This document shows positions 13,268 through 35,414 of a stretch of DNA of 64,000 nucleotides, piece after piece. The notes below the pieces were generated by a model that was given only the letters and a program-made list of their open reading frames with translations, was not told the origin of the DNA and did no database searches. This DNA is from an uncultured Roseicyclus sp. (GTDB taxonomy: Bacteria > Pseudomonadota > Alphaproteobacteria > Rhodobacterales > Rhodobacteraceae): positions 1 to 64,000 of the forward strand of contig CANLEH010000005.1 in assembly GCA_947489665.1 (NCBI GenBank). Reading direction: 5' to 3'. The position numbers were made by a program, and so were the translations under genes. Each line of letters opens with the position of its first letter. Positions within the stretch are counted from its first letter, which is position 1.

Positions 13268-13293
13268 GGCGCACCCTCCCTTGCTGATGCCTG

Positions 13294-13391: not shown

Positions 13392-15263
13392 ATGACCGCT
13401 CAGGGCGAGACCATCCGGCTGACCGTGGCCCAGGCCATTGTGCGCTACCTGATGAACCAGTTCATCGAGATCGATGGAGTGGAAACGCGCATCTGTGGTG
13501 GCGGATTTGGCATTTTCGGGCACGGCAATGTGCCCTGCCTTGGCGAAGCGCTCTACCCCGTTCAAGATGAACTGCCGCTGTATCGCGGGCAAAACGAGCA
13601 GAGCATGGGCTTTGCCGCGGCGGCTTACGCAAAATATCACCTGCGTCGTCGGTTCATGTTCTGCACAGCATCGGCCGGGCCGGGCACAGCCAACCTTTTG
13701 ACGGCATCCGCCCTCGCTCACGCGAACCGGCTGCCGATGTTGATGCTGTGCGGCGATACCTTTCTGACCCGATTGCCGGACCCGGTGCTGCAACAGCTGG
13801 AGCATTTCGGGAACCCGACCTTTGGCGTCAATGATGCGTTCAAGGCCGTGACCCGCTTCTGGGATCGCATCACTCACCCGGCGCAACTGATGCACTGCCT
13901 TCCCAACGCCCTCAACACAATGCTGGACCCTGCCGATTGCGGCCCATGCTTTATAGGCCTGCCGCAAGATCTGCAGGGGTATGCATATGATTATCCTGTG
14001 GAATTCTTTGAGCGCCGCGTGCACCGCATCCGGCGTGCCCATCCTGACCCTGTCGAGATTGCGGCGGCGGCCGCGCTTCTGAAATCCGCCAAACGGCCCG
14101 TCATCATCGCCGGCGGCGGCGTGCAATATTCCAGTGCGGTCGAAGCGCTCGGCACATTTGCTGAACGGCACGCGATCCCCGTGATCGAGACCATTGCCGG
14201 GCGTGCGAATTTGACGGCGGACGATCCACTCAACATCGGACCGGTCGGCGTGACCGGGTCGGACAGCGCAAACTGGACGGCTGAGAAGGCTGACGTGATC
14301 CTCGCCGTTGGCACGCGATTGCAGGATTTCACTACCGGGTCGTGGACAGCATTTGCGAAAGACGCAAAGATCATCGGGTTGAACGCGGGCCGGTACGACG
14401 CAACCAAGCACTTCAGCCTGCCCATCGTGGGTGACGCACGACAGGGCATTCTTGCCCTGACCGATGCCCTTGAAGGGCACGCGGCACCGCCAAGCTGGCT
14501 GGCCGATTGCCAGGCCGAGCGACGCAAATGGGATGCCTATGTGGCCGAGAACACCAAGGCAGGGAACGGTCCCAATTCCTACGCACAAGCCATCGGTGCG
14601 GTGAACGCCCTTTGCGCTCCGGAAGATCGGGTTGTGGCAGCCGCAGGTGGGCTTCCGGCAGAGGTCACCGCAAACTGGCGCACTTTGTTGCCGGGCACCG
14701 TTGATGTGGAGTTCGGATTCAGCTGCATGGGCTATGAAATCGCTGGCGGTTGGGGCGCGCGAATTGCACAATCCGAACGTGAACCCACAGCTGATACTGT
14801 CGTTTTTGTAGGTGACGGCAGTTATTTGTTGATGAATTCAGACATTTACTCAAGCGTACTGACGCAAAAGAAGCTGATCATCCTGGTGCTCGACAATGGT
14901 GGCTTTGCGGTCATCAACAAGCTGCAGAACAACACCGGAAACCAGAGTTTCAACAACCTGATAAAGGATTGCCCTACGGTTCCGGAAGCCTTCGCGGTAG
15001 ATTTTGAGGCCCATGCCAAATCCATGGGGGCGGATGCCGTAACAGTGGCCAACGCAGCGGAACTGGGGGAGGCGTTCAAAGAGGCCAAGGCCTCGGACAA
15101 AACCAGTGTGATCGTGATGCAGGTCGACCCTTATGACGGCTGGACAACCGAAGGCCACACCTGGTGGGAGGTCGGGACCGCCCAAGTCTCGGACGACCCG
15201 AACGTTCGCGAAAAGCACGCGGAATGGGAAGCCGAGCGTGTCAAACAGCGGCAGGGTGTGTGA
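13392..15263 (+). CDS. iolD: 3D-(3,5/4)-trihydroxycyclohexane-1,2-dione hydrolase
   Basis: 623 residues, a thiamine-diphosphate enzyme that opens the cyclitol ring to 5-deoxy-D-glucuronate. The order is an N-terminal pyrimidine-binding domain with the catalytic Glu region (RGQNEQSMGFAAAAYAK), a central domain, and a C-terminal ThDP domain with G474-D-G-S followed by a downstream Asn-containing loop. The ATG follows GGGGAGA. First gene of the rightward iol operon, with the shared operator in its promoter. Length agrees with known IolD proteins. Confidence 0.93.
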   Translation: MTAQGETIRLTVAQAIVRYLMNQFIEIDGVETRICGGGFGIFGHGNVPCLGEALYPVQDELPLYRGQNEQSMGFAAAAYAKYHLRRRFMFCTASAGPGTANLLTASALAHANRLPMLMLCGDTFLTRLPDPVLQQLEHFGNPTFGVNDAFKAVTRFWDRITHPAQLMHCLPNALNTMLDPADCGPCFIGLPQDLQGYAYDYPVEFFERRVHRIRRAHPDPVEIAAAAALLKSAKRPVIIAGGGVQYSSAVEALGTFAERHAIPVIETIAGRANLTADDPLNIGPVGVTGSDSANWTAEKADVILAVGTRLQDFTTGSWTAFAKDAKIIGLNAGRYDATKHFSLPIVGDARQGILALTDALEGHAAPPSWLADCQAERRKWDAYVAENTKAGNGPNSYAQAIGAVNALCAPEDRVVAAAGGLPAEVTANWRTLLPGTVDVEFGFSCMGYEIAGGWGARIAQSEREPTADTVVFVGDGSYLLMNSDIYSSVLTQKKLIILVLDNGGFAVINKLQNNTGNQSFNNLIKDCPTVPEAFAVDFEAHAKSMGADAVTVANAAELGEAFKEAKASDKTSVIVMQVDPYDGWTTEGHTWWEVGTAQVSDDPNVREKHAEWEAERVKQRQGV

Positions 15264-20671: not shown

Positions 20672-21445
20672 ATGAAAAGCAGTTTTCGCCAGACAGAAAT
20701 CCTCGACATCGCGCAACGCGAGGGCAAGGTGACGGTCGAAGGGTTGGCCGCCCATTTTGATGTTACGGTGCAGACCATCCGCCGCGACCTGAGCGAGCTT
20801 GATGAAGCGCGCCACCTCAACAGGGTGCACGGCGGGGCGGTTCTGGCCTCTGGCACATCAAATGTCGCTTACGGAGAACGTCGTGAGTTCCTGGCGGAAG
20901 AAAAGGCGGCCATGGCGCGGCATTGTGCGGCGCAAATCCCCAATGATTGCGCAGTCTTTCTGAACATCGGCACCAGTACCGAGGCGGTGGCGGCCGAGTT
21001 GCTGGCGCACAAAGGTCTACTGGTGGTGACAAACAACATGAACGTGGCCCACACACTGGACCGCAACCCCGATTGTGAAGTGATCGTCACCGGTGGAACG
21101 CTCCGCCGTGGCGATGGCGGGTTGATTGGGGCCATGACGGTGGATGCAATCCGCCGGTTCAAATTCGACTATGCGGTCATGGGGTGTTCGGCCCTTGATG
21201 CCGGGGGTGATGTGCTCGATTTCGACATTCAGGAGGTCGGCGTCAGTCAGGCGATCATTGCACAGGCGCGCGTCCCCTTGCTTGTCGCGGACCACTCGAA
21301 ATTTCAACGCAATGCGCCGGGGCGCATCTGCTCGTTGGCCGATATTCACACGTTGGTCACGGATCGCCCGCTGACCCCTGCCTTGGCCTCCGCCTGCCGG
21401 GAATGGGAGACCAACGTTCTGGTCGCAGAGCCGAGCGCGCCCTAA
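20672..21445 (+). CDS. DeoR/GlpR-family transcriptional regulator
   Basis: 257 residues. N-terminal winged helix (ILDIAQREGKVTVEGLAAHFDVTVQTIRRDL) then the DeoR sensor domain with GTSTEAVAAEL and VADHSKF, which bind a phosphorylated sugar or polyol in this family. ATG preceded by AGGAG. It faces the decarboxylase across 118 bases and overlaps the tail of the DMGDH-like gene by 4 bases. GlpR-like by motif; its target genes are uncertain. Confidence 0.85.
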   Translation: MKSSFRQTEILDIAQREGKVTVEGLAAHFDVTVQTIRRDLSELDEARHLNRVHGGAVLASGTSNVAYGERREFLAEEKAAMARHCAAQIPNDCAVFLNIGTSTEAVAAELLAHKGLLVVTNNMNVAHTLDRNPDCEVIVTGGTLRRGDGGLIGAMTVDAIRRFKFDYAVMGCSALDAGGDVLDFDIQEVGVSQAIIAQARVPLLVADHSKFQRNAPGRICSLADIHTLVTDRPLTPALASACREWETNVLVAEPSAP

Positions 21446-23877
21446 CCCCGCAACAATGCAAAACCGGGATCATACGGGCTGGACGGAATGACAGTCGCCT
21501 CAACCCTGGTGCCGCACAGGTCAAGGTCCATCACCGTCCCCTCTGCCGCAAGTTCTGGCGCGACAAATGCATAGGCGAGGTTGAGACCCACGCGATGCCC
21601 CCATTCGCCTGAGGTTACGGTGCCAACAACCTTTCCGTCCCGCATCAACGATGCGCCGCCATGGGCCGGGCCATGGGTTGTGTCGATCTTCAACGTCACA
21701 AGGCATCTGCCAGGGCCGGCGTCTTTTCGCGCCAACAGGGCCTCCCGCCCAACAAAATCGTCCTTCTCCAACTTCACAAAGCGCGAAAGGCCGGTTTCGA
21801 ACGGGTCGAATTCCGTCAGGATGTCGGCCTTCCAATGCAGAAAGCCTTTCTCTATCCGCATGGACTCAACCGCGCGGGCGCCAAACAAAGTCAGACCATG
21901 GGCGTGTCCGGCCTCACGCAGGGCAAGGTACGCGGCGTAGAGGGAGGCATTGGGGACGTGGATTTCATAGGCCAACTCGCCCGAGAAACTGACGGCCATG
22001 ATCGTGGCCGGGGCAAAGCCCACATAAGCTTCGCGCGCGCTGAGCCATGGAAAGGCCGCCGCCGACCAATCGCCGCGCACGCAGGCCGACAGAACATCGC
22101 GCGTTTTTGGCCCGGCCAGAACAAGGATCGTCTGCTCATTCGTAAGCGAGCGGATATGAACATCCTCGTCCGACCGCATATGCGCCGTGAGCCAATCCAT
22201 GTCATGGTACTCCGCGGCCGCGGCTGAACCATACCAGACTCGATCCGACCCCCGATCGCTTGCCGGGAGGTTGGCAAAAGTCGCCTCTGATTTGAGCATG
22301 CCGTGATGGTTTAGCAGATAGCCAAGGCCAACCCGCCCTGGCCTTTTCGTGACCGTGCCGCAGCACATCCGATCAAGAAAGGCGTGGCGATCCCGGCCGG
22401 TGATCTCGAACCGGTTAAACCCGTTGACTTCACAAAGCCCCGCGCCTGTTTGCACGGCGGCGACTTCGGACCCGACAATGTCGAACGTCTCGTCAAAATC
22501 GAAGGTCAGGGACGGATGAAAATCGGTGGATGGCTTGACGTAATCGACCCGCTCCCACCCGTTCACCACGGTAAATTCGGCCCCTTCAGCGGCCAATACG
22601 GGTGTTAACGGCGTTGTCTTGGCGGGGCGGCCCGCAGGGCGATGTTCATGGGGGAAATGAAAGCGGAATTCGTTTTGGTAATCCTCAATCGCCTTGAGCG
22701 CCGTCAGTTCCGCATTCGCGTGGCCCGTGAACCGGCGCGGGTCGAGGCACCAGGTGTCGTAGCAGGCCTCTCCATGGACGATCTGCTGCGCCAGCAGCCA
22801 GCCATGCCCACCGCCCTCGCCCACACCGGCGCGCAGGCCGATGATGCAGAACGCATTGCGCTTGCCCGGGATCGGACCAACAAGCGGGGCGCCGTCGATG
22901 GTGTAGGTGATCGGGCCGTTCACGATGCGCTTGATGCCGACCTCAGTCAGCGCAGGCATCCGTTCAAACGCGCCTTCCAGCACGTCCATCACGCGGTCCA
23001 GATCGTCGGGGCAAAGGTCGTTGGAGAACGCGGGGCTGATCCCGTCCATCCCCCAGGTTTTGCAGTCCTGTTCGTAGAACCCGACCAGAAGACCGTTCTT
23101 TTCCTGCCGCGAATAATAGTCGCTGATCGGACAGCGCAGCAGCGGCATCCGATGGCCCGCTTCGGCAATGGCGGGGATGTCTTCGGTCACGAAATACTGG
23201 TGCTCCATCGACGCGACCGGGTGTTGCACCCCCATCATCGCGCCGACCTCGTTCACGCGGTAGCCGCAGGCATTCACGACGATATCGGCGTCGATGTCGC
23301 CTTTGTTGGTGTGCACGGTCCAGGTGTCATCCTTGTGCTGCGTCAGGCCCGTCACATCAGTGCTGCGGTAGACTTCCGCCCCGGCTTTGCGGGCGTGAAA
23401 CGCCAAGGCCTGACACAGTTGCGCCGGGTCAATATCGCCGTCTTCGCCGTCCCACAAACCACCAAGCAGGTTGTCGGTTGAGATCAGCGGATGGCGTCGC
23501 GCACACTCCTCCGCGTCGATCACCTCGAACTCAACACCCATACCGCGCGCCATCGAGGCGAAATGGCGGTAGCCCTGCATCTGCGCCTCGGTATTGGCGA
23601 GCCGGATGCCGCCATCGCCGTGATGATAGCCTACTGGATATTCGGGGTCATCGCGGAGCCGCTTATAGAGTGCGATGGAATGGCTTTTCAGGCCCACCAT
23701 CGTCTGGTTCATGCCGAAATTTGTGACCTGCGCTGCCGAATGCCAGGTCGTGCCGGATGTCAGTTCATCCCGCTCGATCAGAACAACGTCAGACCAGCCT
23801 TCCTGCACAAGATGATAGAGGGTCGAACACCCTGCAATTCCACCGCCGATCACGGCCACTTTCGTGCGCGATTTCAT
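21442..23877 (-). CDS. FAD-dependent oxidoreductase with GcvT domain (dimethylglycine/sarcosine dehydrogenase type)
   Basis: 811 residues in the DMGDH/SARDH layout: an N-terminal FAD-binding DAO domain (VAVIGGGIAGCSTLYHL, then TSGTTWHSA whose His is the usual covalent-FAD site), a linker domain, and a C-terminal aminomethyltransferase GcvT fold (about 430-805). Family members oxidise N-methyl amines and pass the methylene to tetrahydrofolate. It is the last gene of the leftward aromatic operon, 64 bases after the dehalogenase gene. The natural substrate is unknown; an N- or O-methyl group on an aromatic amine is one possibility from context. Confidence 0.82.
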   Translation of the reverse strand: MKSRTKVAVIGGGIAGCSTLYHLVQEGWSDVVLIERDELTSGTTWHSAAQVTNFGMNQTMVGLKSHSIALYKRLRDDPEYPVGYHHGDGGIRLANTEAQMQGYRHFASMARGMGVEFEVIDAEECARRHPLISTDNLLGGLWDGEDGDIDPAQLCQALAFHARKAGAEVYRSTDVTGLTQHKDDTWTVHTNKGDIDADIVVNACGYRVNEVGAMMGVQHPVASMEHQYFVTEDIPAIAEAGHRMPLLRCPISDYYSRQEKNGLLVGFYEQDCKTWGMDGISPAFSNDLCPDDLDRVMDVLEGAFERMPALTEVGIKRIVNGPITYTIDGAPLVGPIPGKRNAFCIIGLRAGVGEGGGHGWLLAQQIVHGEACYDTWCLDPRRFTGHANAELTALKAIEDYQNEFRFHFPHEHRPAGRPAKTTPLTPVLAAEGAEFTVVNGWERVDYVKPSTDFHPSLTFDFDETFDIVGSEVAAVQTGAGLCEVNGFNRFEITGRDRHAFLDRMCCGTVTKRPGRVGLGYLLNHHGMLKSEATFANLPASDRGSDRVWYGSAAAAEYHDMDWLTAHMRSDEDVHIRSLTNEQTILVLAGPKTRDVLSACVRGDWSAAAFPWLSAREAYVGFAPATIMAVSFSGELAYEIHVPNASLYAAYLALREAGHAHGLTLFGARAVESMRIEKGFLHWKADILTEFDPFETGLSRFVKLEKDDFVGREALLARKDAGPGRCLVTLKIDTTHGPAHGGASLMRDGKVVGTVTSGEWGHRVGLNLAYAFVAPELAAEGTVMDLDLCGTRVEATVIPSSPYDPGFALLRG

Positions 23878-23941
23878 TGCGTTCCCCCTCCGATCACACC
23901 GTTGTCAGGAAGGGGCGATTTCACGCGCAATGCAAGCGCTT

Positions 23942-26900
23942 TCAAAGATCCAATTCGATCACACCACCTGCAACGGCGGCCCGGGATTGGCATGTGATGA
24001 TATTCGTCTGACGCTGTGCGTTCGACAGGACGAAATCGCGGTGTTCAACCTCACCCGAGCCGAGGCCGCATTTGCACACCCCGCAAATCCCATTGGAGCA
24101 TTTCAGATCAACTGGGATGCCGTTCTCGATCAGCACATCCGCCGCACTCCTGTCCGCTGGGACAAGGAATTCCCGGCCCGACTTCAATAGCTTGATCGTA
24201 AAGGGATGGTTCACATAGTCCGGCATCTCCGGGACGGAGAAATACTCGAGATGGCGGTTGCCCTCCGGGAAGCCAGCCGCCTCGGCCACGTCCATTACGG
24301 CAGCCATGTAAGGCTCAGCCCCGCAGGTATAGACATGCGCGCCGTCGCTGTGCCGTAGGATTGCCGCAAGATCCGCACGGGTGCCTTCCGATGAGATATG
24401 CAGAGTAACGCGATCCGCCCAAGGCACGTTATCAAGATGGTCGAGGTATCCCATCGTGGCCCTCGTACGGCCCGAATAGTGCATCTCGAACGGTTGGTCC
24501 AAGGCGTGCAATCGGTGGGCCATCGCGATCATCGGTGTGATCCCGATCCCGCCCCCCATCAGATAGCTCATTGGGGAATCTTCGTGCAGCGGGAAATGGT
24601 TGATCGGCTTGGAGATGAAGACCTTGCGCCCTTCGTTGAAGATCCGATGCAATAGGGCCGATCCACCCCTGCCGGCCGCTTCGCGCAGAACGCCAATCTG
24701 GTACTTGGACCGATCCGCCGGGTCACCGGACATGGAATATTGGCGCAGGAATTCCGGGGCCACGACGATGTCCAGATGCGCGCCAGCCTCCCATTCCGGC
24801 AAATCGCGGCCGTCAAGGCTGGCGAATTCGTAGATCGTGACATCCTCAGCGGTTTGTTCCGCCTTGGTGATCTGCACGCGCAAGACCGGGCTTTCGTCAT
24901 AATCGCGGGGTTTGTGAACCGGGTCTTCGCCCTTGGCCAGACGTGTCCTGTACTCCTCAGCCGTAATCATCGCCTGATACGCTTCGATCCCGGCCTCCCG
25001 ATCCATGGGGTAAGGGTATGGATAGGGATGTGGCACAAGGGGCGCGGGATAAACCGCAAGCGTCTGATCCTCGTAACGCAGGTCGAGGTCCTTCTGCAGG
25101 CCGCGCGCATTGACCGGCCTCTTGGTGGGTCGATAGCCGCCGTCTTCCTCGATCTCCAGATCCCACCACCATTTCTTTGCGGGGTTGAGGTCGCCTCGGT
25201 TCAACAGATCATCCAGCTTGGCCAAAGCCGGCGCCGATCCCGGCACCTTCATAGCTGTCCAGCGAAACACGGCGTCGCCCAAAACGCCCTCTAGGTTCCA
25301 CGGGCAGGTTTTCATGCACCGCCCGCACATCGCACCGCCTTCGGTTGTGATCCGGTAGGTTGCGCATTTCTGGCTGTCGGATTTCCAGATCTCATACCCG
25401 TTGAACATCAGCTTCGGACCTGCGGTGATGGCACCTGACGGACATTCCCGCGCGCATTTCTTGCAGGCCTCGCAGAAGCTTTGCAGGCCGAAGTCGATGG
25501 GTTTGTCATGGGCCATCGGAAGGTCAGTTGTGACAACGCCCGATTTCAATCGCGGCCCCAGATAGGGATTCAGGATGACTTCCCCAATGCGGCTGACTTC
25601 GCCCAACCCGCTCAGCAGCAGAAGCGGCGGTTGCAGAACTTCGCCATCCATGACCGAATGCGCCTTGGCTTCGTAGCCAAGGTTGCGCAATTGCCGCGCT
25701 ACAACGCCCCCCAGGAGCGAGAACCGCAGATAGGCGCGCATGGATTGCGCCACGCTGATCCAATCGTCGCCAGACGCGCCTTCCATCGTCTCGAACCCCT
25801 GATCAATGATCATCGAGATGGCGTTGTCATGGGGCGGGTCGATGGGCTCACCGGCTGCGTCATGGGAATACCATGTCCAATCCGGGCAGCGGCTGAGACC
25901 GATTGCGTCCACACCCAGAAAGTAGCCGGTCGTCTTGACCAGTTCGGCAGCTGCGTGAGTGTCCAGCTGCGCCTTTTCCGCAGCGGGCTCCCCATCTTGT
26001 AGAAGAACAAACGCCCCAAGCGCCCGCCGTTGCGCCGAAGACGGGGCGGATTTGCGCACGTAGTATCCGCCCTTCGCACCGTCCTGAAGCGGCTTGCCCA
26101 TGTCGCCAAATTGCGCCCGCGCAAACATGTCTGAGCGTTTGGGAACACGTGGCACGCGCGCTTCGTCAATGAACGTTGTGGGCTCCTCAACGCGCTTGAG
26201 CGTCTCAAAGGGGTGCGCACCGTCCACGAAACGGCGCTTGGCATAGGCTTTGGGCGCTTCCGGCAAACGCGCATGCGGCGCAAGCGGTCGATCCGGTGCG
26301 ATCGCAAAGTTCGTCGTGATTACAGCGATCCCGAACCCGCGTCCGAGAAATGGCGCCACCAACCCTTCGCCATCAGGCACCGCAAGACCCGAAGCCACCG
26401 CCATCTTGTTCAGATCAACATCCGCGGTTGAGGCCGTGTGCGCCCGCGCATCATGTCCCAAAACCCGAAGGTAGTTCGCAATCACCACTGCCGTCTCTGC
26501 CGCCAAAAGGCTTGAGCGATGGTCAATCGCATCGATGATCCAATCGCTTCCCGGCTCTTCCGGCTCGGGCGCGCGGGGATGCTCATAGAGGAAGACAATC
26601 GCGTGGGTATGCCCGTCAATGGTGGTGGGCGGTGCTTCCATCGACTCCTTCAGATCAGCCATGATCAGGTCGATGCCCGAGGCCAGCGTCTTGGTCTGCC
26701 GGGTGCGCAGATCCTCGGCCAACCGGGCAATATCGGGGTTCAGATGCGGTTCCGCCAGAACGGCGTCGGGGGGCAGCGCGCATGTGCCAACCATAGACGC
26801 GTCTGCGAAATACCCGAACGCTTTCAGATGATTGGCGCGCTCTTGCAGGTCCGTGGGCGTCTCTGCCACGGCCTTGTTGATCAAGCCATCCCGGATCGCA

Positions 26901-27088
26901 TCCAGCATGGCGGCATGGTCTCGCATCGCGTTGACGATGGAGTGCGGGCGATGGTCATGGGCGTAGGACAATGTCTGAAAGGGGGTGACGCGCGACAGGT
27001 CCACCGCGTCCGCACGCTCAAGCGATTCCAGCCGATACCGCCCAAGATGCACTGGCCTGGTCTTGTCTGAGAATATGCGAAATCCCAT
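23942..27088 (-). CDS. Self-sufficient cobalamin reductive dehalogenase fused to FMN/2Fe-2S reductase
   Basis: 1048 residues. The order is a long N-terminal region of the RdhA/NpRdhA-BhbA type, two 4Fe-4S motifs (C539/C542/C545/C549 and C575/C588/C591/C595, the last ending CPW), then from about 730 an FMN- and NAD(P)H-binding reductase (RQYSMSGDP, GGGIGITPM) and a plant-type 2Fe-2S domain (C997/C1002/C1005/C1033). There is no Tat signal and no RdhB anchor gene, so it should be cytoplasmic and catabolic, like the enzymes that remove bromine or chlorine from halogenated hydroxybenzoates. The architecture allows direct NAD(P)H use. The halogenated substrate is unknown; context suggests a hydroxyphenyl compound. 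Confidence 0.85.
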   Translation of the reverse strand: MGFRIFSDKTRPVHLGRYRLESLERADAVDLSRVTPFQTLSYAHDHRPHSIVNAMRDHAAMLDAIRDGLINKAVAETPTDLQERANHLKAFGYFADASMVGTCALPPDAVLAEPHLNPDIARLAEDLRTRQTKTLASGIDLIMADLKESMEAPPTTIDGHTHAIVFLYEHPRAPEPEEPGSDWIIDAIDHRSSLLAAETAVVIANYLRVLGHDARAHTASTADVDLNKMAVASGLAVPDGEGLVAPFLGRGFGIAVITTNFAIAPDRPLAPHARLPEAPKAYAKRRFVDGAHPFETLKRVEEPTTFIDEARVPRVPKRSDMFARAQFGDMGKPLQDGAKGGYYVRKSAPSSAQRRALGAFVLLQDGEPAAEKAQLDTHAAAELVKTTGYFLGVDAIGLSRCPDWTWYSHDAAGEPIDPPHDNAISMIIDQGFETMEGASGDDWISVAQSMRAYLRFSLLGGVVARQLRNLGYEAKAHSVMDGEVLQPPLLLLSGLGEVSRIGEVILNPYLGPRLKSGVVTTDLPMAHDKPIDFGLQSFCEACKKCARECPSGAITAGPKLMFNGYEIWKSDSQKCATYRITTEGGAMCGRCMKTCPWNLEGVLGDAVFRWTAMKVPGSAPALAKLDDLLNRGDLNPAKKWWWDLEIEEDGGYRPTKRPVNARGLQKDLDLRYEDQTLAVYPAPLVPHPYPYPYPMDREAGIEAYQAMITAEEYRTRLAKGEDPVHKPRDYDESPVLRVQITKAEQTAEDVTIYEFASLDGRDLPEWEAGAHLDIVVAPEFLRQYSMSGDPADRSKYQIGVLREAAGRGGSALLHRIFNEGRKVFISKPINHFPLHEDSPMSYLMGGGIGITPMIAMAHRLHALDQPFEMHYSGRTRATMGYLDHLDNVPWADRVTLHISSEGTRADLAAILRHSDGAHVYTCGAEPYMAAVMDVAEAAGFPEGNRHLEYFSVPEMPDYVNHPFTIKLLKSGREFLVPADRSAADVLIENGIPVDLKCSNGICGVCKCGLGSGEVEHRDFVLSNAQRQTNIITCQSRAAVAGGVIELDL

Positions 27089-27165
27089 CGGGGCCTGTCC
27101 ATTTCACGGCAGCAAATCGTTCAAGGCACCATCGGCCTGAAACGGCGGCAATGGCAATGGCCGAG

Positions 27166-27351
27166 CTAACCGGCCGCGGCCTTCAACGCCGCGCGCAAGA
27201 CCTCCCGGTCGCCGATATGATTGGCAAGGACAAGGATCAGGCGCGCATTCAGGGCATCTGACTGATCCTTGCTCAACCCGTGATGGGCCGCCAGGAGTTC
27301 ATCGTAGAAGTCGTCTGGGTCACGAAGATTGGGCTGTGTGTTCAACGTCAT
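27166..27351 (-). CDS. DUF2783 small protein
   Basis: 61 residues, no signal or membrane segment. The sequence with DPDDFYDELLAAHHGL and NARLILVLANHIGD is typical of DUF2783, a family of small helical proteins that I know only as neighbours of flavin monooxygenases. Its start overlaps the stop of the flavin monooxygenase gene (ATGA), implying coupled synthesis and probably a partner role. Confidence 0.75.
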   Translation of the reverse strand: MTLNTQPNLRDPDDFYDELLAAHHGLSKDQSDALNARLILVLANHIGDREVLRAALKAAAG

Positions 27352-28949
27352 GTCAGGCCTATCGCAGTCTTGAGGGCGGCTTGGATCTCAGCCTCGTTCA
27401 CCTCAGCCCAACGGGCCGCGACGTGCTGGTCCGGGCGGATGAGATAGAGCGCGTGCTCTGCATCCCCAAGGTAGCGGGCGCGCAGTTCATCCGTCAGATC
27501 ATCCCCTGCCAACGTAAGCGTTCCGATCGGTACATCAGTGAGGAGTTCGGGCGGCTGAAGCCCAAGTGTAAGAAGCGTGAAACGGCCCGGCAAGCGATCC
27601 AATAGGAACCCTTCCGCCAGTGGCGCATCGGGGCATGGGCTGCCAGGGCGCGTGCGGGCGGGGCCATCCAAAGCGTCGGGGCCGTTCAGGGGCAGGCCAT
27701 CATAACTGCAAGGGACCGACAGTCGCCCGGAATTGACCAGCGGCCGCGCAAAGGCGTGTTCCTTGGCCAATGTCAGAACCGCATTGCGAAAGATCTTCGA
27801 CATCTCAGACTTCGGCGTCAGGAAATCCGTGGCGCGCGTGGAGTTCAGGATATTCTCATCTGCACCGTAGGCACGTTCTTCGTGGTAGGTTTCGAGCAGC
27901 GCATCAGGTGCCAGGCCCTTCAGCACCAAGTCCAGCTTCCACGCGAGATTGTCGGCATCCTGCATCCCGGAATTCGCGCCGCGCGCACCGAACGGGCTGA
28001 CTTGATGGGCGCTGTCCCCGGCGAACAGAACGCGGCCATGACGAAACCGCTCCATCCGACGACATTGGAACGTGTAGATGGAGGTCCAGACCAGCTCATA
28101 CTCCGTGCCCGCAGGCAGGAATTCGTCAATCCGCTGGCGAATGCGGCCCTCCTCCAGCTCGGCCTTGCGGTCAATGTCCCATCCCAATTGGAAATCGATG
28201 CGCCAAACATCATCGGGTTGTTTGTGCAGCAACGCCGATTGCGGCGCTTCGGCCAGTGGCGGCTCAAACCAGAACCAACGTTCGGTGGGAAAATCGGCGG
28301 TCATCCGGACGTCCGCGATCAGGAAGTTGTCCTCGAACACCCGACCGTCAAAGCTGAGGCCCATCATTTCTCGTGTGGGGGACCGCGCGCCGTCGCAGGC
28401 AATCACGTAATCGGCGGTTAGTTGGTAGGGCCCGTCGGGCGTGTCGATGTCGAGCGTGACCTTGTCCGCATCTTGAGTGAGGCCCGTTACCACGTTGCGG
28501 CCTCGAATTTCGATTGGTTTGCCACCCGCCTCAGCCCGGCGCAGGGCATCGATCAGGAACTTCTCGAAATAGGGCTGCTGGAGATTGATGAAGGCGGGGT
28601 TCTTGTGGCCGCCCTCGGGCAAGAGGTTGAAATTGAAGACTTCCCCATCGCCATGGAACACCCGACCCACATTCCAGACGATCCCCTTTTTCACCATGTC
28701 GGCCCCGGCACCAAGCCGATCCGCGATCTCCAACGTGCGCTTGGCAAAACATATCGCGCGGGATCCTTGGCCGACACCCTCGTGGTCATCGAGCATCAGC
28801 GCGGGCGTGCCCTTTTGGGCGAGGTCGAGGCCGGTTGCCACGCCCACCGGCCCGCCCCCGATAATGATGACGGGGTGGTGGCCCGCGCGCGCCGTAGCCG
28901 GGTCATAGGGGTAGAGTTCGTGGGCAAGGGCATAAGTGGCGCCAACCAT
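27348..28949 (-). CDS. FAD-dependent aromatic monooxygenase (PheA/MhpA type)
   Basis: 533 residues of the class A flavin hydroxylase family: GxGxxG in VIIIGGGPVGVATGLDLA, the central substrate domain, and FAD motif VLFAGDSAHQVSPFGARG. A thioredoxin-like C-terminal part follows. ATG with GGAG upstream; a longer start is possible but unsupported. In an operon with hmgA, maiA and fahA it is a good candidate to hydroxylate a 3- or 4-hydroxyphenylacetate-like compound to homogentisate. That substrate is inferred. Coupled to the DUF2783 gene. Confidence 0.83.
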   Translation of the reverse strand: MVGATYALAHELYPYDPATARAGHHPVIIIGGGPVGVATGLDLAQKGTPALMLDDHEGVGQGSRAICFAKRTLEIADRLGAGADMVKKGIVWNVGRVFHGDGEVFNFNLLPEGGHKNPAFINLQQPYFEKFLIDALRRAEAGGKPIEIRGRNVVTGLTQDADKVTLDIDTPDGPYQLTADYVIACDGARSPTREMMGLSFDGRVFEDNFLIADVRMTADFPTERWFWFEPPLAEAPQSALLHKQPDDVWRIDFQLGWDIDRKAELEEGRIRQRIDEFLPAGTEYELVWTSIYTFQCRRMERFRHGRVLFAGDSAHQVSPFGARGANSGMQDADNLAWKLDLVLKGLAPDALLETYHEERAYGADENILNSTRATDFLTPKSEMSKIFRNAVLTLAKEHAFARPLVNSGRLSVPCSYDGLPLNGPDALDGPARTRPGSPCPDAPLAEGFLLDRLPGRFTLLTLGLQPPELLTDVPIGTLTLAGDDLTDELRARYLGDAEHALYLIRPDQHVAARWAEVNEAEIQAALKTAIGLT

Positions 28950-29024
28950 CTTCTTCTCCGTATTCCGGCCTTTTCGGCCGATCCTCGGCAATGCGCCCGG
29001 ATGGGCGCAACGCCGCCTCGCAGC

Positions 29025-29975
29025 TTATCCCTGAAGCTGTTCCCACATCTCGATGTCGCGCTTGTCGGTCCAGATGCGGGGGTGATCCAGACCCCTCGCC
29101 TCATCGTAGGCGCGTGCTACGTTGAACGGCAGGCAATGCTCGTAGATGGCGTAGTCGGCGAATTTGGGGTCGCAGGCTTCGCGCACTGCGTCCCAAGCGT
29201 CTTTGAGCGAGCCGCCGCGTGCGGCCACGCGCTTGACCGGGTTGTAGGTGGAATGGATGAAATCGGCAGTCGACGAGAGCGCTTTCATCACCATCTCGCG
29301 CCCCTGTAGCGCGTCGCCGCGGCCGGGCGCGATCGCGTCCGGGCCGATATGGGAGATCGCCGAAAGCGTGGTGGGCCAATCCTCGAAATGGCCATCGCCG
29401 CAATAGCAGGCGGAGCGGTATTCGACGATATCACCGGTGAACATGACATTGGCATCTGGCACATGGATCACCGCGTCGCCTGCCGTATGGGCGCGGCCCA
29501 GATGTTTTATGTCGACGCGACGATTGCCAAGGTAGACCGTCATGGCATCGGAAAAGGTGGTCGTCGGGTAAGTCAGACCGGGGATACTCTCATGGCCTTC
29601 GAAGAGCCGGGGGAAGCGTTGGAATTCGCTGTCCCAATCCTCCTGCCCGCGTTCCACGACCATGGCGCGTGCCGTGTCGGACATGATGATCTGGTCCGCG
29701 CCGTAGGCCGAGGCCCCCAGCACCCGCACCGCATGGTAGTGCGTGAGAACAAGGTGCGAGATCGGTTTGTCCGTCACCGAACGCACGCAATCGATGACTT
29801 TCTGGGCGAGGCGTGGTGTGGCTTGCGCTTCAACGATCATCACGCTGTCATCCCCGACAATCACTCCGGAATTCGGGTCACCCTCGGCAGTGAAAGCATA
29901 AAGCCCCTCGCCTATTTCGTCGAAGGTGATCTTCTTTTCCGTCATGTCCCCCTGCGAGGCGAAGGCTTTGGCCAT
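29025..29975 (-). CDS. MBL-fold metallo-hydrolase-like protein with altered metal motif
   Basis: 316 residues, metallo-beta-lactamase fold. The canonical HxHxDH motif reads H79-Y-H81-A-V-R, so the Asp and third His of the second metal site are missing; later ligands remain (LGRAHTAGD and VMFTGDIVEY). It may bind one metal or have another activity. It sits between the fahA and monooxygenase genes in the aromatic operon, with gaps of about 75 bases each side. An ester or thioester hydrolase, or a lactonase for a homogentisate-type lactone, is a guess. Start taken at the first ATG with AGGA upstream. Confidence 0.8.
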   Translation of the reverse strand: MAKAFASQGDMTEKKITFDEIGEGLYAFTAEGDPNSGVIVGDDSVMIVEAQATPRLAQKVIDCVRSVTDKPISHLVLTHYHAVRVLGASAYGADQIIMSDTARAMVVERGQEDWDSEFQRFPRLFEGHESIPGLTYPTTTFSDAMTVYLGNRRVDIKHLGRAHTAGDAVIHVPDANVMFTGDIVEYRSACYCGDGHFEDWPTTLSAISHIGPDAIAPGRGDALQGREMVMKALSSTADFIHSTYNPVKRVAARGGSLKDAWDAVREACDPKFADYAIYEHCLPFNVARAYDEARGLDHPRIWTDKRDIEMWEQLQG

Positions 29976-30053
29976 GGTGTGTTGTCCTATCCGATTTTTC
30001 GTGTAGCCAGCGGCAGTCGCCTCCGGCGGGCATATTTTTGGAACAAAGATGGG

Positions 30054-31304
30054 TCAGCTGGTGAAAGGATCCTTGGCGGCGGGTTCGACGGTTCCGGTGC
30101 AAGGTCCAAAGCCAAGGCGATAGCCATTGCCGCGCGCTACACCGTGTAGGGCAAGCGTATCGCCATCCTCAATGAAGGTGCGCGGGCCAGAGGCTGTGTC
30201 GATCGTCTCTTTGCCGCCCCAGCTCAGTTCAAGGAGCGAGCCGCGTTGGTGCTTCTCAGGGCCAGAGATTGTCCCGGAACCAAGCAGATCGCCTGCGCGC
30301 ATCGGGCAGCCCGAGGTCGCGTGGTGGGCCAGTTGCTGTGCAGCCGAATAGTACAACTCGTTCGCGTTGGTTTGGGCGATTGTCTCGCCGTTCAAAGTGA
30401 TGGACAGGTCGATGTCGTGGTTCATCGGCGCTGTATCGGCCAGATGCGGCAGCAGTGGTTTTTCGCGCTCTGGCGTGGCGCACCGGAACGGGGCCAGCGC
30501 GGAGGCTGGAACGATCCACGGGCTGATGGTGGTAGCCGTGGCCTTGGCCTGGAACGGTCCAAGGGGCTGGTATTCCCAAGCCTGAATATCACGGGCCGAC
30601 CAGTCGTTCAGCAGGACGTAGCCGAAGATATTTGCGAACGCTTGATCGACACTCAGCGGGCCATCGGAGGGCACGCCAACAATCGCCCCCATCTCCAACT
30701 CAATATCAAAGCGGCGCGAGGGGGCGAAGATCGGCACGTCGTGGTCCGGCGATTTCAACTGGCCCCACGGGCGCTTGACCGGCGTTCCTGACACCACCAC
30801 TGATGAGGCCCGTCCATTGTACCCGATGGGCATATGCAACCAGTTGGGCGGCAGCGCGTTTTCCGGACCCCGGAACATGGTACCCACGTTCGTCGCATGG
30901 TGGCGGCCAGCGTAGAAGTCGGTGTATTCTGCCACGCGGAAAGGCATGTGCAGTCTGGCTTTTGCCATGGGCACCGAAAAGGTGGTGACGATGTCCTGCA
31001 CATGCTCGTCGCTACCTTCGGCCAACATCATCGAAAGCACCTGTCGGTAGGCGTACCAGGTGGTTGGCCCAAGCTCCATGAAGTCGTTCCAGTAAGGCGC
31101 ATCCAGCACGTCAGCCTCGGGATCAGCGCGCAGATGACCAGCAGCCTCCAACCCCGTCGCGTCCACGATCCGGTCGCCTATCGCCACGCCACAGCGCAGA
31201 TCACCATCGTCGACCGAGAAAACACCATAGGGCAGATTGTTTAGCGGAAAATCGGTGTCCGGCGCATTTGCGCTGTCCAACCAGGACCGTTTCAGATCAG
31301 ACAT
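30054..31304 (-). CDS. fahA: Fumarylacetoacetase
   Basis: 416 residues, FAH family: an N-terminal SH3-like domain (about 1-115) and the catalytic fold with YTDFYAGRHHATN, holding the metal and base residues, and PIGYNGRASSVV. It cleaves fumarylacetoacetate to fumarate and acetoacetate, the last step of tyrosine/homogentisate degradation. The start overlaps the maiA stop (TAATG). Length matches the family. Confidence 0.93.
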   Translation of the reverse strand: MSDLKRSWLDSANAPDTDFPLNNLPYGVFSVDDGDLRCGVAIGDRIVDATGLEAAGHLRADPEADVLDAPYWNDFMELGPTTWYAYRQVLSMMLAEGSDEHVQDIVTTFSVPMAKARLHMPFRVAEYTDFYAGRHHATNVGTMFRGPENALPPNWLHMPIGYNGRASSVVVSGTPVKRPWGQLKSPDHDVPIFAPSRRFDIELEMGAIVGVPSDGPLSVDQAFANIFGYVLLNDWSARDIQAWEYQPLGPFQAKATATTISPWIVPASALAPFRCATPEREKPLLPHLADTAPMNHDIDLSITLNGETIAQTNANELYYSAAQQLAHHATSGCPMRAGDLLGSGTISGPEKHQRGSLLELSWGGKETIDTASGPRTFIEDGDTLALHGVARGNGYRLGFGPCTGTVEPAAKDPFTS

Positions 31305-31942
31305 TACCCCACCCCCGCTTCAGGTTGCGCATCCGGTGCGGCTGCTGCGATTTCAGGCACGGAAAGGCACGCGGCTTCGATGCGGGTGACTTTCGGGTAT
31401 GGCGCAAGAGGCATCCCGAACCTGTGCGCATTGACGCATTGCGCAACGATACACAGATCCGCCAGATCCGGCGCGTCCCCAAATGCGAAGCTCTCTCCGC
31501 CGGGCAGCAGGGCCTCAAGCGCCGCAAAGCCTTTGGCCATCCAATGCCGCATCCAGCTGACCTTATCATCGTCGCTTGCGCCGAACCGGCCTTCAAGCTC
31601 GGCCAGAACCCGCAGATTGTTGACGGGGTGCACATCCGTGGCGATCGTGAGCGCGGCCGCCAATTGGCGCGCGCGCTGCACAGGGTCGGACGAGAGCATC
31701 GGCGGCTCGGGATAGATGGCGTCCAGATAGTCGATGATCGCAAGGCTCTGGGTCAGCACCGTGCCATCGTCCAGCACAAGCGCGGGAACGCCGTAACCGG
31801 GATTTATCGCGCGGTAGGCGTCGCCGTGCTGCTCGCCGCTGGGAAGGTCCACGGAGACCGACGTGTAGCTTACTCCCTTGAGGTTCAGCGCCGCGCGCAC
31901 CCGGAAGGAGGTGGTGGACCGCCAATAGCTGTGAAGGATCAT
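31304..31942 (-). CDS. maiA: Maleylacetoacetate isomerase
   Basis: 212 residues, zeta-class glutathione S-transferase. It begins MILHSYWRSTTSFRVR, whose SSxSxRVR-like glutathione-site motif here reads RSTTSFRVR; the C-terminal helical domain includes QCVNAHRFGM. It isomerises maleylacetoacetate to fumarylacetoacetate. The ATG overlaps the stop of a tiny upstream gene (ATGA); the longer open frame upstream runs through that gene and is rejected. Confidence 0.92.
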   Translation of the reverse strand: MILHSYWRSTTSFRVRAALNLKGVSYTSVSVDLPSGEQHGDAYRAINPGYGVPALVLDDGTVLTQSLAIIDYLDAIYPEPPMLSSDPVQRARQLAAALTIATDVHPVNNLRVLAELEGRFGASDDDKVSWMRHWMAKGFAALEALLPGGESFAFGDAPDLADLCIVAQCVNAHRFGMPLAPYPKVTRIEAACLSVPEIAAAAPDAQPEAGVG

Positions 31943-32046
31943 TCGTCGCGACCCCCATAGGTACGCGCGATCCAGACCAGCACCAGCGGAAAGGCGATGG
32001 AGGCCAGAATGGCGGCCGAGATCAGGATCCAGAAGAGTGCACTCAC
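31939..32046 (-). CDS. Tiny single-helix membrane protein (35 residues)
   Basis: A GTG-started frame of 35 residues: one hydrophobic helix (about residues 3-26, rich in Ile, Ala, Leu and Val) and a short tail RTYGGRDE. Its start overlaps the stop of the 51-residue gene upstream and its stop overlaps the maiA start (ATGA), so it fills the gap exactly. No known family that I recognise. The overlap geometry argues that it is translated. Confidence 0.5.
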   Translation of the reverse strand: MSALFWILISAAILASIAFPLVLVWIARTYGGRDE

Positions 32047-32198
32047 GCCTCGGGCCCTCCGGCGCCGCCTTGACGCTCACCCGGCATCCGTGCGGGCGCT
32101 TCGCTGTGGCGCGTGGCCCGCCAGCGACCCCGGCGCGGCCAGAGCGCCAGCGCGGCGATGACCACGACGGCGGCGATGGTGATATATCCCAGATCCAT
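32043..32198 (-). CDS. Tiny single-helix membrane protein (51 residues)
   Basis: 51 residues, ATG with GGGGAGG upstream. Residues 1-19 form one hydrophobic helix (starting MDLGYITIAAVVV), followed by a basic, Pro/Gly/Arg-rich cytoplasmic-type tail. It lies 13 bases after hmgA and overlaps the next tiny gene. Function unknown; with its neighbour it might form a small membrane complex or a transport accessory. Confidence 0.55.
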   Translation of the reverse strand: MDLGYITIAAVVVIAALALWPRRGRWRATRHSEAPARMPGERQGGAGGPEA

Positions 32199-32211
32199 CG
32201 GTCGACCTCCC

Positions 32212-33567
32212 CTACTTCTTGCCCGGCGTGCCGTCGAATTTCTTTTCCAGCGTCGTCCAGCAATCGATGTAGTCGTCCTGCAGCGGTGCCTCATTCGCGG
32301 CGAAGCCGGTCAGGTGTTGCGGGAAGCGGGTCTCGAACATGAACGACATGGTGTTGTCGAGCTTGTGCGGTTGCAGATCAACATTGGAAGCTCCTTCGAA
32401 CGCCTCCCGGTCAGGACCGTGGGGCAGCATCATGTTGTGCAGGCTCATGCCCCCCGGCACAAAGCCCTGTGGCTTGGCATCATACTGGCCGTAAATGTTG
32501 CCCATCAGCTCTGACATGATGTTCTTGTGATACCACGGCGGGCGAAATGTATCTTCGGCTACCATCCAGCGTTCGCGGAACAATACGAAATCGATGTTCG
32601 CGACCCCGGGCTGGCCCGAGGGTGCCGTCAGCACGGTAAAGATCGATGGATCCGGGTGATCGAACAGGATCGCCCCGACAGGGCAATAGGTCTTGAGGTC
32701 GTATTTCAGCGGCGCGTAGTTCCCATGCCAAGCCACAACGTCCAGCGGCGACTGCTCGATGTTCGTCCGGTGGAACTGACCGCACCATTTGATTGTAACG
32801 GTCGAGGGAACTTCACGGTCTTCATAGGCCGCAACGGGCGCCTTGAAATCGCGCGGGTTGGCCATGCAGTTCGCACCAATCGGGCCTCGACCGGGCATTT
32901 CGAACTTGGCCCCGTAATTCTCGCACACGAAGCCGCGCGCAGGCCCGTCCAGCACTTCGACGCGGTAGACCAGACCGCGCGGGATGATCGCGATCTCCTG
33001 CGGCTCCACGTCGATGATGCCAAGCTCGGTGCAGAACCGAAGGCGCCCCTCCTGAGGGACAACCAACAATTCGCTGTCTGCAGAATAGAAGTAGTCATCC
33101 ACCATCGACGCGGTGACAAGGTAGATATGGCTGGCCATCCCGACCTGGGTATTCACGTCGCCCGCTGTGGTCATGGTCCGCATGCCGGTCAGCCATGTCA
33201 GCGGTGCATCAGAATGCGGAACGGGGGACCAGCGATATTGTCCGAGGGACACCACATCTGGGTCCACATTCGGCGCACTCTGCCAATAGGGCAGCGCAAT
33301 CTTCTCATACTTGTGCGAATGCTTCACCGATGGCCGGATACGGTAGCACCAGGTTCGTTCGGGCCGCACATCCGTAAAGGCTGTGCCAGACAATTGCTCA
33401 CCATAGAGACCGTAGTTGGCCTTCTGGGGGGAGTTCATGCCCTGCGGCAGCGCACCTGGCAGAGCCTCTGTCTCGAAGTCATTGCCGAAGCCCGGCATAT
33501 ACCCTTCATGGGCGCCCGGATGGGATGGGGCCTGTATCATCGGACGTGGCGTCGATTGTTCGGTCAT
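32212..33567 (-). CDS. hmgA: Homogentisate 1,2-dioxygenase
   Basis: 451 residues, the ring-cleaving Fe(II) dioxygenase that turns homogentisate into maleylacetoacetate. The family start [22 protein letters not shown] is visible near residue 24, and the metal region includes [14 protein letters not shown] and [14 protein letters not shown]. First gene of the ten-gene leftward run and the best landmark for the pathway. Length is normal. An inverted repeat about 35 bases upstream may be its operator. Confidence 0.95.
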
Positions 33568-33600
33568 CGCACTCCTCCTGCGCTCACAGCACAGGTATCA

Positions 33601-33614
33601 GTTACTTTTGTAAC
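33601..33614. promoter_or_regulatory. Inverted repeat upstream of hmgA
   Basis: GTTAC, TTTT, GTAAC: perfect 5-bp arms, 34 bases before the hmgA start. The position suits a repressor site for the aromatic operon, but no regulator gene adjoins it. The rest of 33568-33881 shows no gene that I trust. Confidence 0.4.
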
Positions 33615-33881
33615 CAACAAGCTGCTTCGATGTGTTCATTTGCGGATCTCCGTCCCTACGTTTGTCCGGCGAAGCGATGCACTCTTCGGAGGCCTGTGCC
33701 GTCTGGTCATCGCAGCGACTCCACGTTACCAGACAGGGAACTCCGACGCCTTATTTTATGGGCGACGCCAAAACGAAGTGTTGGACGGCTGGCCAAACGA
33801 CCTAGGCTTTCATCCAAGATGGGGGACGCAAACGCCCTGGGCCACAACAATGCCCAAATACTGGAAGACGGGAGCGATGAC

Positions 33882-35414
33882 ATGACAACCACCCTTGCCG
33901 CACTTTGGATGGCACAAGACAAAGCCGCACCCGCTATTGGCGCGCCCGGTCACGATTGGTTGAGCTACGGCGCGCTGAGCACGCTTGCCGACGAGACTGT
34001 CGCAGCCCTGCACAGCGCTGGCATCGGGCGCGGCGATCGGGTTGCGATTGTTTTGCCCAACGGCCCTGAAATGGCAGCCGCGTTTATCTGTGTTGCCAAT
34101 GTCGCAACGACGTGTCCGCTGAACCCGGCCTACAAGGTTGATGAATTCGCCTTCTACCTCGATGACCTCAAAGCCAAGGCAATTGTCCTGGCCGAGGGCG
34201 AAAACGGCCCGGCCTTTGAGGCCGCGAAGGCGCAAGCTCTGATGGTGCTGCGCCTTGGCACGGAACCCGATGCACCGGCAGGCCAATTCACGTTGCGCGC
34301 TGAGGGAGGCGGCGGAATTGCCGACACCTCCGCGCCCGAAGCGGACGATGTGGCGCTAATCCTGCACACGTCCGGCACCACATCGCGGCCCAAGATCGTG
34401 CCGCTCTTGCAGTCCAATATCGCCGCATCCGCCCACAATATCGGGGCCTCCCTGGAGCTTTCGGTGAAGGATCGCTGCCTGAACGTCATGCCGCTTTTCC
34501 ACATTCATGGGCTGATCGCAGCGGTGTCGGCGACCCTCGCCTCCGGCGGTTCGGTCTGGTGTGCACCGGGCTTTGACGCGCTGAAATTCTTTGGCTGGAT
34601 GCGTGAAGCGCAGCCCACCTGGTACACAGCCGTCCCAACAATGCACCAAGCCATCCTCAGCCGCGCCAGCCGCAATGCCGAGACCATTGCCGATGTGCCT
34701 TTGCGCTTCCTGCGCTCCTCCTCGGCCTCCCTCCCAGGCCCGGTGATGGAGACTCTGGCTGCGACCTTCTCGGCCCCCGTGATCGAAGGCTACGGGATGA
34801 CAGAGGCCACCCATCAGATGGCCTCTAACCCCCTCCCGCCTCGCGCGCAAAAGCCCGGTGCTGTTGGGGTCGAAGCGGGTCCGCTGGTTCGTATCGCCCA
34901 TGAAGTTGAAAACCATCTGATCGACAGTGTGGGTGAAATCGTCATTTCAGGCCCCAACGTAACCCCGGGGTATGAGGGCAATCCGGACGCCAATGCCAAA
35001 AGCTTCTTCGAGGCCGATGGCAAGCGCTGGTTCCGTACCGGCGATCAGGGTCAATTCGACGACGACGGCTACCTGACACTGACCGGCCGCTTGAAAGAAA
35101 TCATCAATCGCGGCGGAGAAAAGGTCTCTCCGCTCGAGGTCGACGGCGTCCTGTCGGCGCACCCCGCCGTGGCGCAAGTCGTGACCTTCGCCCTGCCTCA
35201 CCCAAAACTGGGGGAAGAGGTCGCAGCCGCCGCTGTGCTGAAAGAAGGCACAGACGCGAGCGAGGCCGACATTCGCGCTTTCGCAGCCGAGCGGCTTGCG
35301 GCCTTCAAAGTACCGCGCAAGGTCGTGATCCTCGATGAGATCCCGAAAGGAGCGACGGGTAAGTTGCAACGGATCGGACTGGCCGAAAAACTGGGCCTAA
35401 CCGAGGGCGCGTAA
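33882..35414 (+). CDS. AMP-forming acyl-CoA synthetase (oxalate/malonate-CoA ligase-like)
   Basis: 510 residues of the ANL superfamily: P-loop TSGTTSRPKIV, a PLFHIHGL segment, GYGMTEATH, the hinge region with TGDQGQFDDDGYLTLTGRLKEII, and the C-terminal lysine in PKGATGKLQR. The PLFHIHGLIAA and YTAVPTMHQAIL segments recall oxalyl-CoA synthetase (Pcs60/AAE3). ATG with GGAG upstream; a longer frame runs through the hmgA promoter and is rejected. It is divergent from hmgA. Substrate not certain. Confidence 0.82.
   Translation: MTTTLAALWMAQDKAAPAIGAPGHDWLSYGALSTLADETVAALHSAGIGRGDRVAIVLPNGPEMAAAFICVANVATTCPLNPAYKVDEFAFYLDDLKAKAIVLAEGENGPAFEAAKAQALMVLRLGTEPDAPAGQFTLRAEGGGGIADTSAPEADDVALILHTSGTTSRPKIVPLLQSNIAASAHNIGASLELSVKDRCLNVMPLFHIHGLIAAVSATLASGGSVWCAPGFDALKFFGWMREAQPTWYTAVPTMHQAILSRASRNAETIADVPLRFLRSSSASLPGPVMETLAATFSAPVIEGYGMTEATHQMASNPLPPRAQKPGAVGVEAGPLVRIAHEVENHLIDSVGEIVISGPNVTPGYEGNPDANAKSFFEADGKRWFRTGDQGQFDDDGYLTLTGRLKEIINRGGEKVSPLEVDGVLSAHPAVAQVVTFALPHPKLGEEVAAAAVLKEGTDASEADIRAFAAERLAAFKVPRKVVILDEIPKGATGKLQRIGLAEKLGLTEGA

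Follow-up and report, generated by a model that had tools for sequence, protein, structure and literature searches.

A reductive dehalogenase gene in a homogentisate operon of Roseicyclus: a predicted route for brominated aromatic acids

What a reductive dehalogenase (RDH) might contribute next to the genes for homogentisate degradation (hmg genes) is the question raised by a 64,000-nucleotide stretch of contig CANLEH010000005.1 (assembly GCA_947489665.1, positions 1 to 64,000; hereafter the window) from an uncultured Roseicyclus sp. In this window, a minus-strand directon that runs from position 33567 to 21442 encodes, in close spacing, hmgA, small open reading frames (ORFs), maiA, fahA, a metallo-beta-lactamase-fold protein (MBL), a FAD ring hydroxylase (FMO), a DUF2783 protein, an RDH and a DAO-GcvT fusion protein (Table 1). 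A first-pass annotation of the window had proposed that a halogenated hydroxyphenylacetate is dehalogenated, hydroxylated to homogentisate and cleaved by the products of these genes. The co-directional arrangement of the dehalogenase, FMO, DUF2783 and hmgA-maiA-fahA is borne out by the present analysis, with the families scoring over curated cut-offs, and the directon probably represents a catabolic operon that joins a B12-dependent RDH of the oxygen-tolerant type to the homogentisate route, with debromination preceding hydroxylation and cleavage.

The dehalogenase, the hydroxylase module and the proposed route

By its sequence, the window RDH is assigned to the B12-type, oxygen-tolerant, self-sufficient class in which an RDH is fused to a reductase. 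In the Protein Data Bank (PDB), it matches NpRdhA (E=2e-155), and its C-terminal residues 732-1045 match phthalate dioxygenase reductase (PDOR; 2pia, E=1e-55), a combination that places it in the class of JtRdhA. A 4Fe-4S dicluster match at residues 539-598 and a Fer2 ([2Fe-2S]) domain at 969-1037 complete the architecture; dehalogenation would be driven by NAD(P)H. Five residues of NpRdhA implicated in substrate holding or protonation (S422, M423, Y426, K488 and R552; PMC7565698, PMC10463259) correspond to S449, M450, Y453, K515 and R579 of the window RDH and are identical in all 88 aligned RDHs. Pocket residues fail to split the 7 hmg-linked RDHs from the 5 pobA-linked ones and those of loci L090 and L094. 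Respiratory RdhA proteins possess a twin-arginine export signal and are encoded alongside the membrane anchor gene rdhB. By eye, no such signal is present among the first 40 residues of the window RDH, and its immediate neighbors are the DUF2783 and DAO-GcvT genes, although the genome was not searched for rdhB.

The same kind of fused reductase is found in JtRdhA of Jhaorihella thermophila, which shares the key residues of the window RDH, uses NADPH, in air as well, and takes bromine or iodine off positions ortho to a phenolic hydroxyl (PMC10463259). Its rate on 3-bromo-4-hydroxyphenylacetate is 99% of that on the best substrate, and E. coli W carrying JtRdhA grows on this compound (PMC10463259). 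This tie to 4-hydroxyphenylacetate catabolism is, however, engineered, and the available text of PMC10463259 describes no native operon; E. coli W itself degrades 4-hydroxyphenylacetate via the homoprotocatechuate route (PMC3053370). None of the tested chloro-compounds, including 3-chloro-4-hydroxyphenylacetate, was turned over by JtRdhA, although NpRdhA reduces chlorinated compounds (PMC10463259). Thus, bromine (or iodine) is the likelier halogen, and the chlorine also admitted by the first-pass annotation is unsupported, as is a sponge origin of the substrate; a chlorophenol reading is disfavored for the same reason.

The FMO and DUF2783 genes, in the same directon as hmgA, share 4 bases, and the pair resembles MhaAB of Pseudomonas putida U, a FAD hydroxylase with a small coupling protein that converts 3-hydroxyphenylacetate to homogentisate (PMC3053370). 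In Burkholderia xenovorans LB400, likely MhaAB counterparts of 560 and 60 aa adjoin hmgABC (PMC3053370). The likeness, one of description, lies in a FAD hydroxylase with a partner of about 60 aa near hmg genes and makes DUF2783 a good candidate for an MhaB-type coupling protein; the difference is the dehalogenase, which goes unmentioned in the parts of PMC3053370 consulted. By this likeness, the FMO substrate could be a 4-hydroxy or a 3-hydroxy acid. Alternatively, the FMO might be a 4-hydroxyphenylacetate 1-hydroxylase, an activity cited for other bacteria (PMC3053370). The PF10932 match of the window DUF2783 protein is the sole one in its genome; among solved structures, its best match is a designed protein (E=0.0003), which is uninformative.

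The FMO gene stands next to the DUF2783 gene in all 8 DUF2783-carrying RDH loci (excluding L081, the window's own) and also in 6 loci of the genus (L109 being on the same contig as L002), and of the 123 DUF2783 matches across the family sample described below, 95 are no more than 10 kb from hmgA. In nearly all places examined, FMO-DUF2783 is accompanied by the MBL-fold protein, an exception being L088, where it was not found beside them. This protein is 80-90% identical across the clusters compared and, in the five linked non-genus loci, shows 80-82% identity as against 65-69% for the hydroxylase; it is perhaps, at a guess, a lactone or thioester hydrolase. In L099 (Sphaerotilus; 6900-13810) and L088 (4389-6809), the FMO-DUF2783 pair is located near a gene of the VOC family (glyoxalase/dioxygenase superfamily), in stretches that lack hmgA, so that the hydroxylase module can occur apart from homogentisate dioxygenase.

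In the proposed route, electrons would pass from NAD(P)H through the fused flavin/[2Fe-2S] reductase to the two [4Fe-4S] clusters of the RDH, which would put hydrogen in place of a bromine (or iodine) ortho to the phenolic hydroxyl. The likeliest substrate would be 4-hydroxyphenylacetate in its 3-bromo or 3,5-dibromo form, or a closely related compound. The FMO, with DUF2783 as the coupling protein, would then convert the freed hydroxyphenylacetate to homogentisate, from which HmgA, MaiA and FahA would yield fumarate and acetoacetate. The homogentisate set is complete, each of the three proteins passing its equivalog cut-off. HpaB has no match in the genome and HpaD none over the cut-off; hence, among the routes looked for, homogentisate alone remains for hydroxyphenylacetate. 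A dehalogenating transferase role of the PcpC/LinD kind for MaiA is conceivable but is set aside on the strength of its score, which exceeds the cut-off of the MaiA equivalog family.

Recurrence of the linkage

All 13 genomes of the genus encode a full-length RDH, and all 13 carry hmgA. The RDH gene directly follows the DUF2783 gene that ends the hmg operon in four of these genomes (window included), and in 3 further ones it shares the strand of DUF2783 but lies some 14, 24 and 26 kb past it. The gene order of the window is repeated in three other genus genomes (loci L107, L108 and L109, the last without DAO-GcvT). The DAO-GcvT gene adjoins the RDH gene in three of the four genus operons (G000, the window genome, G199 and G209, not G202) and has no match in the G202 locus (L002) or in the five linked loci outside the genus. 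As a pathway member it is disfavored, given homologs of 84-87% identity away from RDH in five other genus members, and it is probably only loosely associated.

A wider comparison covered 80 RDH loci, the best of at least 559 confirmed relatives among at least 593 candidates, with neighbors called when at least half of the query was covered at 30-50% identity, depending on the gene, so that weaker homologs are dropped. Loci L001-L004 are genus members (G207, G202, G208 and G203, respectively), recognized by identical contig places; the other genus RDH places match no locus. The hmg genes are found near RDH in 6 of the 80 loci, namely L002 of the genus, from the cultivable strain HKCCE4037, and L009, L015, L034, L038 and L044 (5 of the 76 outside the genus); in the stretches examined, the genus members L001, L003 and L004 show no such link. 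All six contain hmgA, MBL, FMO and DUF2783. The arrangements differ: L015 has the gene order and direction of the window, the hmg genes lie downstream and face RDH in L009, L034 and L044, and they are upstream on the opposite strand in L038, where another FAA-hydrolase-family gene is present. About 0.32 linked loci would be expected from the flank lengths and a 4-Mb genome (Poisson P about 1e-6, kinship ignored). The link between dehalogenase and hmgA posited in the first-pass annotation thus recurs in other lineages instead of being absent from all relatives.

In a quick RDH tree (LG+G4, SH-aLRT only; L100, with a 742-residue match, skipped, L081 left out, and a long-branch warning for L093/L094), the 7 linked RDHs, window included, fall inside one 35-row group (SH-aLRT 85), itself nested in a group of 38 rows with a support of 100. 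The linked label requires 5 changes, of which well-supported branches force 4, versus 6.8 for shuffled labels, suggesting that the join between RDH and hmg genes was made or lost several times. The tree also places RDHs of the Granulosicoccaceae, a family of Gammaproteobacteria, among alphaproteobacterial ones (L008, L016, L020, L030, L039, L059, L063 and L074), which suggests horizontal transfer among marine bacteria. Each of the five linked non-genus loci encodes a MarR-type regulator close to hmgA, and its relatives adjoin RDH in L005 and L069, two loci without hmg genes; the RDH and hmg genes may share this regulator. Neither L002 nor the genus stretches gave a match to it, the window being outside that search.

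The family sample comprises 198 genomes of the Rhodobacteraceae, one per genus and many of them drafts, with RDHs counted in open frames of more than 700 aa; RDH frames under 700 aa, second matches in one frame and a further piece of a broken hmgA (G151) are left out. At least 80 of these genomes have an RDH match, and 69 of the 80 also have hmgA. RDH and hmgA are within 150 kb in G112 and G154; in G007 and G027, RDH is at most 10 kb from DUF2783, and hmgA is on a different contig. The window genome also encodes a second, short (about 411-422 aa) protein that scores over the RDH cut-off (G000:C2:473648-474529; L086, 7637-8872, minus strand) and is too short for a fused reductase; next to its gene are those for an arginase-family protein and, judged by eye, glucose-6-phosphate dehydrogenase. 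Many genomes of the family encode RDH-like proteins of about 390-460 aa.

Other RDH neighborhoods involve related pathways. In L044, hpaE, hpaD, an hpaG-like gene (below the cut-off) and hpaH are located directly upstream of RDH, and relatives of these four genes are upstream of RDH in L034. The pobA gene is near RDH in 6 of the 80 loci and pcaG in 3. In L087, paaZ is directly upstream of RDH, with paaK, paaG and MBL-FMO-DUF2783 close by, and L088 has FMO-DUF2783; neither includes hmgA in the stretch. The recognizable pathways are thus phenylacetate, hydroxyphenylacetate and hydroxybenzoate routes, the non-halogenated counterparts of the acids on which JtRdhA is fastest, and the contexts other than hmg fit the same substrate class.

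Plasmid-borne systems offer further comparisons. The RDHs of Comamonas sp. 7D-2 plasmid pBHB (49.6% identity to the window RDH over the full length) and Nitratireductor sp. OM-1 plasmid pOM-1 (49.0%) are fused enzymes of the same family that adjoin ring-degradation genes, but of the hydroxybenzoate route: protocatechuate 4,5-dioxygenase, transporter and porin genes in the former, and pobA, an extradiol dioxygenase and 4-oxalomesaconate tautomerase in the latter. No homogentisate genes are annotated near RDH in the stretches examined of either plasmid. We take the Comamonas enzyme to be BhbA, a name absent from the record, which has a second RDH-like place. The RDHs on plasmids of Jannaschia, Ruegeria TM1040, Aminobacter and Yoonia have regulators, transporters and other genes as neighbors, with no adjoining hydroxyaryl-acid pathway evident. 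Conversely, the hmg cluster of Dinoroseobacter shibae pDSHI02 includes hmgA, fahA, MBL, FMO (62.2% identity) and DUF2783, but no RDH is annotated in the stretch examined, and pcaF and paa genes follow DUF2783.

Layout of the directon and flanking genes

The directon contains 8 clear genes, or 9 with small ORF 2; the ten-gene operon of the first-pass annotation requires both small ORFs. Its gaps of at most 80 bases likewise hold when both are counted, with 13 bases from the hmgA stop at 32212 to small ORF 1 at 32198 (by our own start choices), whereas 165 bases follow hmgA if the conserved small ORF 2 (32046-31939) alone is considered. The two small ORFs overlap, small ORF 2 overlaps maiA, and maiA and fahA have one base in common; the remaining gaps are 78 bases between fahA and MBL, 75 between MBL and FMO, 77 between DUF2783 and RDH and 64 between RDH and DAO-GcvT. 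The genes are presumably co-transcribed. No minus-strand terminator-like sites are seen in the operon gaps, although the scan overall is at chance level (11 found, 11.1 expected), so that empty gaps say little; a promoter scan of the window was at or below chance and uninformative.

Compared with three genus relatives, hmgA, maiA, fahA, MBL, FMO and RDH (three pairs each) have dN/dS values of 0.02-0.14, a range that also holds for DAO-GcvT (two pairs) and DUF2783 (one pair, dS not being sensibly estimable in the other two); the values are rough because dS exceeds 1 in nearly all pairs. For small ORF 2, identity is 39-61% and dN/dS is 0.25-0.34 in the three genus relatives measured. In G209 and, by eye, G198, a DUF1428 gene is present inside the hmgA-maiA gap. 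Upstream of hmgA, AMP-ligase and PanE-like genes were considered and set aside, being present in G199 and not in the G209 or G202 stretches. Downstream of the directon, an inositol operon with a DeoR regulator runs in the opposite direction.

Table 1. Features of the directon and its upstream flank (positions in the window)
Feature	Coordinates	Strand	Evidence and remarks
hmgA, homogentisate 1,2-dioxygenase, 451 aa	32212..33567	-	TIGR01015 630.8 bits, cut-off 510.75
Small ORF 1, 51 aa, doubtful gene	32043..32198	-	No Pfam match; the hmgA-maiA gaps of four genus relatives lack a counterpart, judged by eye
Small ORF 2, 35 aa, probable gene, one transmembrane segment by eye	31939..32046	-	Counterparts by eye in four genus relatives; no Pfam match
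maiA, maleylacetoacetate isomerase, 212 aa	31304..31942	-	TIGR01262 245.5 bits, cut-off 171.05; start of our own choice
fahA, fumarylacetoacetase, 416 aa	30054..31304	-	TIGR01266 472.5 bits, cut-off 375.3
MBL, metallo-beta-lactamase-fold protein, 316 aa	29025..29975	-	PF00753; PDB 8d2z over residues 1-315, E=3e-113
FMO, PRK08132-type FAD ring hydroxylase, 533 aa; alternative start 28991	27348..28949	-	NF006002 740.7 bits, cut-off 416; PF01494
DUF2783, 61 aa, candidate MhaB-like coupling protein, overlaps FMO gene	27166..27351	-	PF10932 E=2e-31
RDH, self-sufficient reductive dehalogenase, PDOR-like domain fused, 1048 aa	23942..27088	-	TIGR02486 181.7 bits, cut-off 160.35
DAO-GcvT fusion, 811 aa, sarcosine/dimethylglycine dehydrogenase-like	21442..23877	-	PF01266, PF01571, PF08669
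Spacer between hmgA and divergent AMP-ligase gene; presumed operon promoter region	33568..33881	.	Position only
Divergent AMP-ligase gene upstream of hmgA	33882-35414	+	

Alternative readings and significance

Several observations weigh against a route from a brominated acid to homogentisate in this directon. The linkage of RDH and hmg genes is a minority state across the family: the window genome is the sole case in the family sample, with no RDH within 50 kb of hmgA in the 79 other genomes (68 with hmgA), and no hmg genes are found in 74 of the 80 RDH loci (some on short contigs). Within the six linked loci, all of hmgA, maiA and fahA are matched only in L002, L015 and L044, there being no fahA match in L034 and no maiA or fahA match in L009 and L038. 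Furthermore, MhaAB is reported to be highly specific for 3-hydroxyphenylacetate (PMC3053370) and is thus a poor direct fit to a 4-hydroxy substrate. Finally, the hmg genes also serve tyrosine catabolism because HPPD is encoded, over the cut-off, elsewhere in the genome (G000:C1:1102867). The pathway of the first-pass annotation is thus partly supported: one directon combines the dehalogenase with a ring hydroxylase and the full hmg set, and the link recurs in other lineages, but the linkage is rare and the acid hydroxylated by the FMO may be a 3-hydroxy one.

The RDH may be a general, bromophenol-detoxifying enzyme whose gene landed after a standard hmg operon and was carried along, being co-directional here by happenstance. 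The rarity of the linkage favors such a chance neighborhood, as does the activity of Ros_A3X954 from Roseobacter sp. MED193 on 2,6-dibromophenol (PMC13101508); locus L080 represents an RDH of this strain, possibly the same protein. This explanation nonetheless appears unlikely given the recurrence of the linkage in several layouts, with the 5 label changes (4 forced) in the tree, the excess of linked loci over expectation and the hydroxyaryl-acid pathways among the other RDH neighbors.

Similarly, there is a small chance that the RDH acts on bromotyrosine or bromo-4-hydroxyphenylpyruvate and that the product enters via HPPD, in which case only HmgA, MaiA and FahA of the operon would be needed. 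The HPPD of this genome and the well-known marine bromotyrosines are compatible with such an entry, but HPPD is encoded outside the operon, and RDH occurs with FMO-DUF2783 in the absence of hmgA (L087, L088) and beside hpa, paaZ and pobA, which points to hydroxyphenylacetate and hydroxybenzoate. Least of all do we expect the FMO to act first and the RDH to dehalogenate a halogenated homogentisate, sparing HmgA a halogenated ring: such a compound can bear halogen ortho to a hydroxyl, like the substrates of this RDH class, and the sequence of steps cannot be read from the gene order, but the near-maximal rate of JtRdhA on 3-bromo-4-hydroxyphenylacetate speaks for prior debromination, and the FMO would have to accept halogenated rings.

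With debromination before hydroxylation retained as the preferred order, a more far-reaching proposal, plausible yet tentative, is that the directon is a dedicated native system for the mineralization of brominated hydroxyphenylacetates, in which RDH and FMO-DUF2783, with DUF2783 as the coupling subunit, constitute a two-step module that was joined repeatedly to hmg operons in marine Alphaproteobacteria. The presence of RDHs beside hydroxybenzoate genes is already known, as is debromination feeding hydroxyphenylacetate catabolism by engineering (PMC10463259). The open-access literature searched yielded no account of a link between an RDH and the homogentisate route and, in agreement with the first-pass annotation, no described operon with the full set.

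Long RDHs are very common in the family, as the family sample indicates, and their natural substrates are hardly known. The operon ties one of them to a defined pathway, so that the substrate question can be put to the test with a handful of compounds. A function for DUF2783 is suggested as well, as is a natural parallel to JtRdhA in engineered E. coli, and some marine bacteria may be able to use brominated aromatic acids through homogentisate. If the dedicated native route is true, the abundant catabolic RDHs of marine bacteria would gain a physiological role in natural organobromine turnover.

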